Positions 4,125 through 6,917 of a stretch of DNA of 64,000 nt are shown one piece after another. The DNA comes from Sporocytophaga myxococcoides DSM 11118. GTDB lineage: Bacteria > Bacteroidota > Bacteroidia > Cytophagales > Cytophagaceae. Every line of letters begins with the position of its first letter. Position 1 is the first letter of the stretch. The notes under the pieces are model-generated. The model made no database searches, was not told the DNA's origin, and was given only the letters and a program-made list of their open reading frames with translations. The stretch spans positions 434,001 to 498,000 of the forward strand of contig NZ_AUFX01000004.1 in the NCBI RefSeq assembly GCF_000426725.1, written 5' to 3'. Made by a program: the position numbers and the translations under genes.

Positions 4125-5273
4125 TTAGCAGTAAGGTGCCATTAATTCATTTAAATCAGCATCCTCAATCTGCTTTCTCTGATCAGCCATATCAAGGAAT
4201 TTTTTGTAAACCTGATCCAGTTGTTCTTTTGAAAGCTGATAGCCAATAGTTGTAAGACGGTGACTCAATGCTGCTCTTCCGCTTCTTGCAGTAAGAACGA
4301 TGGAGGATGCATCGGCTCCAACATCAGAAGGGTCGATGATTTCGTAGTTTTCTCTATGCTTAAGGAAACCATCCTGGTGAATACCTGATGAGTGAGCAAA
4401 AGCGTTTTTACCAACGATAGCTTTGTTTGCCTGAACCGGCATTCTCATTAAAGAAGAAACAAGGTCACTGGTTGGCACTAATTTTTTAGTATTGATACCC
4501 GTCTCAATTCCAAGAGAAGGATGGCTTTTGATAATCATCGCCACTTCTTCAAGAGAAGTATTTCCTGCTCTTTCTCCGATACCATTGATGGTACATTCTA
4601 CCTGTCTGGCACCATTTGCAATAGCTGCGATAGCATTTGCTGTGGCCAGACCAAGATCATTATGGCAATGGGCAGATATGATAGCTTTATCTACATTTTT
4701 AACATTGTCCATAAGATACTTGATACGCTCACCGAATTGCCACGGTAAAGTATATCCGGTGGTATCAGGAATATTAACGACTGTAGCACCAGCAGCGATA
4801 ACTGCTTCAACCATCTGGGCAAGGAAAACGACATCAGCACGTCCGGCATCTTCGCAGAAAAACTCAACATCGTCAACGAACTTGCGAGCATATTTAACAG
4901 CAGCGACACCCTGCTCGATAACTTTTTCTCTTGTTGTTCTCAGTTTATACTGAATGTGCATATCTGAGCTTCCGATACCTGTATGGATACGTTTTCTTTT
5001 GGCAAATCTAAGGGCTTCAGCTGCACTATCGATATCCATTTCTTTTGCTCTGGTGAGCGCACAGATAATCGGTTCTTTTACTGCCTTACTGATTTCAACA
5101 ACGGAGTTAAAATCTCCAGGGCTTGAAATCGGAAACCCTGCCTCGATAACATCAACACCAAGTTCTTCCAATGCTTTGGCAACCCTGATTTTCTCTTCAG
5201 TATTCAACTGGCAGCCTGGCACCTGCTCTCCATCACGAAGTGTTGTGTCAAAAATATAAACTCTTTTAGCCAT
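4125..5273 (-). CDS. leuA: 2-isopropylmalate synthase, short form without regulatory domain
   Basis: First committed enzyme of leucine synthesis: condenses acetyl-CoA with 2-oxoisovalerate. 382 residues. The HMGL-like TIM barrel is complete: [13 protein letters not shown] at residues 7-20, metal-binding [15 protein letters not shown] near 200, and NGIGERAGN near 230. A short linker region follows ([11 protein letters not shown]). The protein ends before the C-terminal LeuA dimer domain that carries leucine feedback inhibition in the roughly 520-residue enzymes. It is the first structural gene after the attenuator. A related synthase activity (citramalate or homocitrate) cannot be excluded from sequence, but operon context strongly favours LeuA. 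Confidence 0.92.
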
Positions 5274-5310
5274 AACTTTTTGTTTTCTCTACAAACGTAT
5301 ATTTTTAATG

Positions 5311-5347
5311 AAAAAGCCATCCTCAGTTGTTGAGAATGGCCTTTTTT
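5311..5347 (-). terminator. leu attenuator hairpin
   Basis: On the minus strand the stem AAAAAGGCCAT/ATGGCTTTTT with paired CTCA/TGAG closes a 5-7 base loop and is followed by T residues. It lies about 15 bases after the stop codon of the Leu-rich leader peptide and about 37 bases before the leuA start, the expected place for an attenuator. The A/T-flanked stem also reads as a terminator on the plus strand. Confidence 0.8.
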
Positions 5348-5362
5348 ATTCGTTTAAATGCC

Positions 5363-5431
5363 TCACCCAACTGAAAATTTGACTTTCAGCAGAAGGAGGG
5401 TTTTAAATAATATATTGAATGACTTAAACAT
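5363..5431 (-). CDS. leuL: leucine operon leader peptide (attenuation)
   Basis: Small ORF I read by hand: ATG at 5431, TGA at 5363-5365, 22 codons. It translates as MFKSFNILFKTLLLLK followed by VKFSVG. The four consecutive Leu codons (CTC CTT CTG CTG, minus strand about 5398-5387) are the hallmark of a leucine-sensing leader. When charged tRNA-Leu is scarce, a stalled ribosome would prevent the terminator at 5311-5347 from forming. Bacteroidota starts usually lack a Shine-Dalgarno site and none is obvious here. The arrangement promoter, leader ORF, hairpin, leuA is complete within about 230 bases. The symbol is by analogy with enterobacteria. Confidence 0.8.
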   Translation of the reverse strand: MFKSFNILFKTLLLLKVKFSVG

Positions 5432-5816
5432 TTCTAATCTCGTAACATTTAATAGTTCGCCACAATTCCACTTTTTTATGCGATAATAATTACAAATTTA
5501 CTAAATATCATCAGCTATATATCAATTTTTAATGTAAAAAATGCATATATATACGGTTTCAAATCAAAAGCGCGCTAAAACCAAAACAACAAACATGCTG
5601 AATTTAAACATTTTACATTAAATTCCCATTAAAAAAATTACAGTTTCAAAAAAGACCTCAAACATTAAAATCTCATGAGAATGGAGGAAGGAGCCTATTT
5701 GTGAGTAAATCTTAAATCTTTGAATTTGGGTAAAAATATTCTAAATTAATGGGCTCTCGAACATACAAACTTTTACTTTTCCACCCATGTTAAAAGGTTA
5801 ACTAGAAAAACTCCAA
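5432..5816. other. AT-rich intergenic region between leu leader and vWA gene
   Basis: About 385 bases between divergently oriented genes. Apart from the candidate leu promoter I see no open reading frame with coding character and no RNA gene. It should also contain the promoter of the vWA gene, which I could not place. Confidence 0.5.
5493..5525 (-). promoter_or_regulatory. candidate Bacteroidota-type promoter for the leu operon
   Basis: Minus-strand TAAATTTG at 5500-5493 matches the Bacteroidota -7 consensus TAnnTTTG. A TTG at 5525-5523 lies 22 bases upstream as a possible -33 element, slightly longer spacing than usual. A start near 5486 would put the leader-peptide ATG about 55 bases into the transcript. 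This is a pattern match in AT-rich DNA, so the call is tentative. Confidence 0.35.
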
Positions 5817-6917
5817 ATGAAGGGATTACGATTTTCAAAATTTACACCTCCGCCTAAGGGAGATTCAGGGTTTGACAACCTTTCAAAGGTTTTTTTCCAA
5901 TTGCTGAATTATACCTCAGGGGATGTTTCCGAAGCACTTAACTGGATGAATGACCTTGACCGTCAACATGGATTGACAGATGACAGCTATGGAATGGGTG
6001 ATTTTATCCGAGATTTGAACGACAAGGGCTTTATCAAAGAAGAAAGTTCTGAAAAAGGAACTTTTAAGCTTACAGGAAAATCAGAGCAAGTGATCAGAAG
6101 AAATGCCCTGGAAGAAATATTCGGAAAATTAAAAAAGAATCAGAAAGGGAATCATAATACTTCAAAAACCGGATTGGGCGATGAGCCAAGTGCAGACATC
6201 AGACCATACCAGTTTGGAGATGCTCTGGATTCGATTAACATTACCGATTCGCTTCACACTGCACAGATTAATCATGGTATTGATGAATTTAAGCTTACCC
6301 ATGAAGATTTGCAGGTTCAGGAAAAGGAACATAAATCTCAGACCAGCACTGTCCTGATGATAGACATTTCCCATTCTATGATACTGTATGGAGAGGACAG
6401 AATTACTCCTGCGAAAAAAGTAGCCATGGCTTTGGCTGAGCTTGTGAAAGTAAAATATCCTAAGGATACGCTTGATATAATTGTATTTGGTAATGATGCC
6501 TGGCCGGTCGAAATCAAAGATCTTCCTTATCTTGAGGTCGGACCTTACCATACCAATACATACGCGGGATTAGAACTTGCCATGGACATCCTCAGAAGGA
6601 GAAAAACCAATAACAAACAGATCTTTATGATCACGGATGGTAAGCCAACGTGCTTAAAGGTAGGAACAAAATATTACAAAAACAGTTTCGGTCTGGACAG
6701 AAAGGTTGTAAATAAGACACTTGAAATGGCGGGCCAGTGCAGGAGATTAAACATCCCAATAACTACCTTTATGATTGCTAAAGACCCTTATCTTCAGCAG
6801 TTTGTTCAGGAATTTACCAAGACAAATAACGGACGGGCCTTTTACAGTTCACTTACCGGACTTGGGGAATATATCTTTGAAGATTTTATTAGAAACAGAA
6901 AAAAAACAGTGAGATAA
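5817..6917 (+). CDS. vWA domain protein (partner of MoxR-type ATPase)
   Basis: 366 residues with no signal peptide or membrane segment, so probably cytoplasmic. The N-terminal 150 residues are helical and charged. The C-terminal half is a von Willebrand factor A domain with a complete MIDAS: MIDISHSM (DxSxS, about residue 181), a central Thr in YHTNTYAG, and TDGKPT near 275. It precedes a MoxR-type AAA+ ATPase by 14 bases; such ATPase-vWA pairs act as metallochaperones or complex-remodelling machines. No BatB-E or CoxE-type substrate genes are nearby, so the client is unknown. Confidence 0.85.
   Translation: MKGLRFSKFTPPPKGDSGFDNLSKVFFQLLNYTSGDVSEALNWMNDLDRQHGLTDDSYGMGDFIRDLNDKGFIKEESSEKGTFKLTGKSEQVIRRNALEEIFGKLKKNQKGNHNTSKTGLGDEPSADIRPYQFGDALDSINITDSLHTAQINHGIDEFKLTHEDLQVQEKEHKSQTSTVLMIDISHSMILYGEDRITPAKKVAMALAELVKVKYPKDTLDIIVFGNDAWPVEIKDLPYLEVGPYHTNTYAGLELAMDILRRRKTNNKQIFMITDGKPTCLKVGTKYYKNSFGLDRKVVNKTLEMAGQCRRLNIPITTFMIAKDPYLQQFVQEFTKTNNGRAFYSSLTGLGEYIFEDFIRNRKKTVR

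Follow-up and report, generated by a model that had tools for sequence, protein, structure and literature searches.

The DNA upstream of leuA in Sporocytophaga myxococcoides DSM 11118 has the organisation of a ribosome-mediated transcription attenuator, which would sense charged tRNA-Leu and control the operon leuACD-x-leuB-ilvD-ilvB; we put the probability of this reading at about 0.92. Together, a leader peptide and a transcription stop signal most probably keep the operon off until leucine runs low. All coordinates refer to the window, the whole stretch of 64,000 nucleotides that was analysed, and the leader carries the following features in the order of transcription:

5500-5493, minus strand: Bacteroidota-type -7 promoter box TAAATTTG (TAnnTTTG), predicted from sequence and conservation
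5431-5363, minus strand: leader peptide open reading frame, read from the sequence, with the predicted product MFKSFNILFKTLLLLKVKFSVG
5399-5382, minus strand: segment 1, the Leu-codon region, which pairs with segment 2 (1:2 hairpin, -15.2 kcal/mol)
5398-5387, minus strand: putative regulatory codons CTC CTT CTG CTG (four Leu), read from the sequence and also within segment 1
5371-5360, minus strand: segment 2, the antiterminator 5' arm GTTGGGTGAGGC, which holds the leader stop codon TGA
5346-5311, minus strand: intrinsic terminator (segments 3:4) with a 15-bp stem, loop ACAAC and a T-run, -19.7 kcal/mol

The leader open reading frame lies exactly where the sequence-only reading had placed a 22-codon minus-strand peptide with CTC CTT CTG CTG in a row. 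Its codons (ATG TTT AAG TCA TTC AAT ATA TTA TTT AAA ACC CTC CTT CTG CTG AAA GTC AAA TTT TCA GTT GGG TGA) specify 22 residues, five of them Leu and four of these adjacent, the fifth Leu codon being the TTA located 5' of the run. By itself the Leu run is a weak and not very rare feature, since LLLL is present in 9 of the 646 ATG open reading frames of 10-40 codons in the 64,000-nt window. What goes beyond chance is the combination of the Leu run, the terminator, the place before leuA, the conservation in relatives and the complementarity between the stop-codon region and the terminator arm.

The terminator hairpin, AAAAAGGCCATTCTCA-ACAAC-TGAGGATGGCTTTTT, follows the leader stop codon after about 16 nt and precedes the leuA start at 5273, confirming the earlier claim of a hairpin some 15 bases past the stop. 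A simple terminator scan missed it; direct inspection and folding show it plainly. The whole leader RNA is more stable than all 200 of 200 dinucleotide shuffles (z -3.65), and a motif search of the organism's own genome for further copies of the terminator pattern finds the single match at 5346-5311. The gene next upstream of the leader is divergent (5817-6917, plus strand) and no minus-strand gene has its end there, which leaves the leuA transcript as the one target on which the terminator can act. The TAAATTTG box has a TTG about 22 nt upstream and is identical in all four Sporocytophaga genomes, the DNA farther upstream having diverged; TAnnTTTG is given as the Bacteroidota -7 promoter consensus in passages of PMC9723704, and transcription is predicted to start near 5486. 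A second TAnnTTTG-like box, TACGTTTG, is peculiar to this genome and lies at 5299-5292 between the terminator and leuA. It is without TTG at -33 and is changed in all three congeners; a weak transcription start at this box is possible.

The competing antiterminator sought by folding is present. Segment 2, GTTGGGTGAGGC, is complementary both to the terminator 5' arm and loop, which together form segment 3 (GCCATTCTCAAC), and to the Leu-codon region, so that the leader has the 1:2, 2:3 and 3:4 pairings that make up the set of a trp-type ribosome attenuator. The duplex between segment 2 and the terminator 5' arm reaches -13.0 kcal/mol (shuffle p 0.02) and is the best of all windows in 450 nt; the alternative hairpins have energies of -15.2 (1:2), -10.2 (2:3) and -19.7 kcal/mol (3:4). 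Antiterminator and terminator are mutually exclusive, and the antiterminator arm overlaps the leader stop codon. A point against attenuation is that the terminator is the more stable of the two by about 10 kcal/mol; the antiterminator would therefore have to win by forming first during transcription.

These elements suggest the following course of events. RNA polymerase would start near 5486, with a ribosome trailing through the 22-codon leader. With ample leucine, the ribosome would arrive at the stop codon (5365-5363) and place its footprint over segment 2; with segment 2 covered, segment 3 would be free to form the 3:4 hairpin and transcription would terminate before leuA. Under leucine shortage, the ribosome would stall on the four Leu codons, breaking the 1:2 hairpin and exposing segment 2, which would pair with the terminator 5' arm and permit read-through into the operon. 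If the leader is not translated, the 1:2 and 3:4 hairpins would form, making termination the default. From the known size of the ribosome footprint, a ribosome stalled with the last Leu codon in its A-site (5389) would extend to about 5376, leaving segment 2 exposed, and one that has reached the leader stop codon would hide all of segment 2. The earlier reading had derived leucine attenuation from the trp/leu model; the open reading frame, Leu run, terminator, antiterminator, 1:2 hairpin, promoter box and leu/ilv operon bear this out, and the leucine response itself we infer.

The promoter box, open reading frame, segment 2 and terminator are kept in three congeners, with about 90% identical columns vs 42% upstream of the promoter. 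One congener has a clean in-frame 3-nt deletion that removes one Leu codon, and in one a Leu codon has changed synonymously from CTT to CTG; the Leu run and hairpin, whose conservation in close relatives had been proposed as a check, are thus both kept in all three, with a single Leu-codon loss in one. The nearest named records are Sporocytophaga metagenome-assembled genomes (MAGs), in which LeuA is 99-100% identical. Across related Cytophagales the expected conservation held in part: the antiterminator is kept in other Cytophagaceae, but several genera are without the element. At L009, L010, L011, L022, L044, L064 and L076, the terminator motif CATTCYCRAY is accompanied by a short open reading frame ending in or near GTYGRG, and the GTTGRG of segment 2 is conserved across Cytophagaceae. 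An alignment of 11 sequences from Cytophagaceae and near relatives, small and with a nearly invariant helix, has the antiterminator paired in 91% of cells vs at most 62% when slid. The sole fully compensatory pair is GTCGAG/CTCGAC in L022, the other variants being GTTGAG/CTCAAC and GTTGGG/CCCAAC. Because the helix is nearly invariant, covariation in this alignment is modest, the count being reached by 54 of 500 shuffles. Several Cytophagaceae genera (e.g. L013-L021 and L023) have no such element at leuA, and it is therefore dispensable. At L012, another Cytophagaceae locus, the region from -280 to -50 before leuA holds the conserved terminator but no clear sign of a Leu leader or of segment 2, and is possibly a decaying attenuator.

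Other Cytophagales families have different terminators and different Leu-rich leaders upstream of leuA, such as MQSKSLNIALLLQLLLGVV (L191), MISTSTRKNEQLLSLLLA (L218) and MNALELNLNLLNLLIP (L172), each ending at a stop codon. We compared 18 representative leaders, almost all of them from Cytophagales and many unrelated in sequence. Of all upstream windows in the 450 nt, it is the stop-codon region (from 12 before to 24 after the stop-codon start) that pairs most strongly with the terminator arm, in 18 of 18 leaders. Measured against dinucleotide-shuffled versions of this region, its pairing has a mean z of -2.5, with 15 of the 18 below -1.64. Leu makes up 26% of the in-frame codons of these leaders vs 12% and 8% in the other two frames, the start codons being uncertain in some (L022, L064, L155, L171). 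The stop codon is in or close beside segment 2 in all leaders compared. The covariance model R1, run over 390 Cytophagales genomes, gives strong matches confined to the window's own family; its weaker matches in Cytophagales resemble background terminators and were set aside. No convincing Leu leader with a terminator is found in 40 leuA upstream regions, 39 from outside the order and one (L247) from within it, and in these regions leuA may frequently lie inside an operon. On a contig labelled Candidatus Roizmanbacteria (L087), which is probably mis-binned, a Leu-rich leader and a terminator accompany the gene for a Bacteroidota-like LeuA (72% identical).

The same genome carries a trp leader, MKLNVHMSWWWSIS, with three Trp codons (WWW) and its own stop codon, upstream of trpE at locus L148, which lies outside the window, near 503 kb of contig C2. 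It is followed by the strong terminator GCTTGCTGTTCAACAACAGCAAGCTTTTTT, and TGTGAACA, directly after the leader stop codon, is complementary to the trp terminator arm. The WWW is kept in five other genomes of three genera (L219-L223 in relatives). A His leader at hisG is not found in this genome. As judged from its sequence, the trp attenuator strengthens the view that classical attenuation operates in these bacteria.

The pairings could also belong to an attenuator that is independent of the leader peptide and is switched by a protein or small molecule, through a riboswitch, a T-box or an RNA-binding protein, the open reading frame being incidental. The stricter conservation of antiterminator and terminator than of peptide sequence across genera would suit such a switch, as would the terminator of L012, with its lack of a clear Leu leader. 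However, Leu enrichment is limited to the leader frame in the 18 leaders, the stop codon is always in or close beside segment 2, indels within the genus preserve the frame, and the trp leader of the same genome carries Trp codons instead. An Rfam search over 4900-5900 likewise returns no T-box or riboswitch and chance matches only, and we regard a peptide-independent switch as very unlikely.

An ordinary constitutive terminator or a chance hairpin, with leuA driven by its own promoter downstream, would draw on the TACGTTTG box between hairpin and leuA, but the alteration of this box in all congeners and its missing -33 TTG speak against such a promoter. Nor is there a minus-strand gene upstream for which a terminator would be required, and the leader, segment 2 and terminator show specific conservation, which makes this arrangement exceedingly improbable. 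The small peptide, being short, hydrophobic and conserved in the genus, might instead be functional in itself as a membrane peptide or toxin; outside the genus, however, the leaders have little in common except Leu codons and the residues that segment 2 encodes, and the peptide has no NCBIfam match, so that a function of its own is scarcely to be expected. The ribosome-mediated attenuator remains our preferred reading, and its likely target is the operon that begins with these genes:

5273-4125, minus strand: leuA, 2-isopropylmalate synthase of 382 aa that has no LeuA_dimer regulatory domain
4061-2655, minus strand: leuC, aconitase family, large subunit
2650-2042, minus strand: leuD, aconitase C-terminal family, small subunit
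2038-686, minus strand: 450-aa predicted secreted protein of no assigned family, inside the operon

The operon order is leuA-leuC-leuD-x-leuB-ilvD-ilvB, with leuB, ilvD and ilvB past the window edge. Gaps of 3-4 nt separate the genes from leuC to leuB, followed by gaps of 39 and 20 nt, and a terminator stands after ilvB. Through leuA, leuC, leuD, leuB, ilvD and ilvB the operon serves the synthesis of Leu, the amino acid in which the leader is rich. The 450-aa protein starts with a signal-like N-terminus, is repeat-like in the middle and ends in a tail that resembles type IX secretion cargo; it has no Pfam or NCBIfam match.

In typical LeuA, the LeuA_dimer domain carries leucine feedback inhibition. 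This domain is found nowhere in the present genome and is present in all 14 of 14 control genomes. Because LeuA here is without the feedback domain, attenuation may carry more weight in leucine control. A general link between short LeuA and the attenuator is not claimed: most attenuator loci have a short LeuA, but there are exceptions both ways, with attenuator loci in genomes with long open frames (L153, L191) and many short-LeuA loci without an attenuator. It is a tentative and rather doubtful proposition that the leucine attenuators of Cytophagales represent a widespread, fast-evolving design, with the stop codon in or beside the antiterminator arm and a logic that persists as the sequence is replaced, and that this design replaces allosteric feedback as the main leucine control where LeuA is without the regulatory domain.

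The enterobacterial leu leader (leuL) has four adjacent Leu codons, a terminator before leuA and 1:2, 2:3 and 3:4 pairing, and the Sporocytophaga leader resembles it in all of these. The sequence-only reading had described the locus as the enterobacterial layout; it appears to work likewise, but has no match to Rfam RF00512, even with E allowed up to 1 in a search of 4900-5900. Unlike leuL (RF00512), the Sporocytophaga leader is compact, with its stop codon inside the antiterminator arm, and it differs further in its Bacteroidota-type promoter box and in the addition of ilvD and ilvB to the operon. The Staphylococcus aureus ilv-leu attenuator likewise has a Leu-rich leader and a terminator ahead of a joint ilv-leu operon, and genetic evidence there identifies leucine as the effector (PMC5794164). 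The S. aureus leader, however, is of 26 aa and also has Ile codons, its terminator lies 52 nt from the stop, and its proposed antiterminator pairs with the U-tract, whereas that of Sporocytophaga pairs with the terminator 5' arm (PMC5794164). The actinobacterial LEU element shares a Leu-codon leader open reading frame upstream of leuA, but is a pseudoknot with the Shine-Dalgarno box and has no obvious terminator, in contrast to the classical terminator/antiterminator of Sporocytophaga (PMC1262725).

Within Bacteroidota, passages on Flavobacterium psychrophilum, from the same phylum but a different group, speak of 'strong clues' of leader-peptide attenuation before amino-acid biosynthesis operons, and the main-text passages describe no leu leader (PMC9723704). 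Leader-like small open reading frames are reported in B. thetaiotaomicron (PMC7366714). In 2010, one group knew leader-peptide systems only in Proteobacteria and Actinobacteria and then added Firmicutes (PMC2965389). The literature searched yielded no description of a leu attenuator in Cytophagales, though the survey by Lopatovskaya et al. 2010, as cited in PMC4833913, may predict Bacteroidota leaders. The mechanism class is old, and the leu attenuator described here is a further member in a group where little has been documented.

The best-known cases of trp/leu-type attenuation come from Proteobacteria, Actinobacteria and some Firmicutes, and the literature searched has only brief mentions for Bacteroidota. 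A leu attenuator with a recurring antiterminator, together with a conserved trp attenuator, suggests regular use of ribosome attenuation in Cytophagales. The leuA leader offers a concrete and easily tested case of it, sharpened by the missing feedback domain of LeuA.
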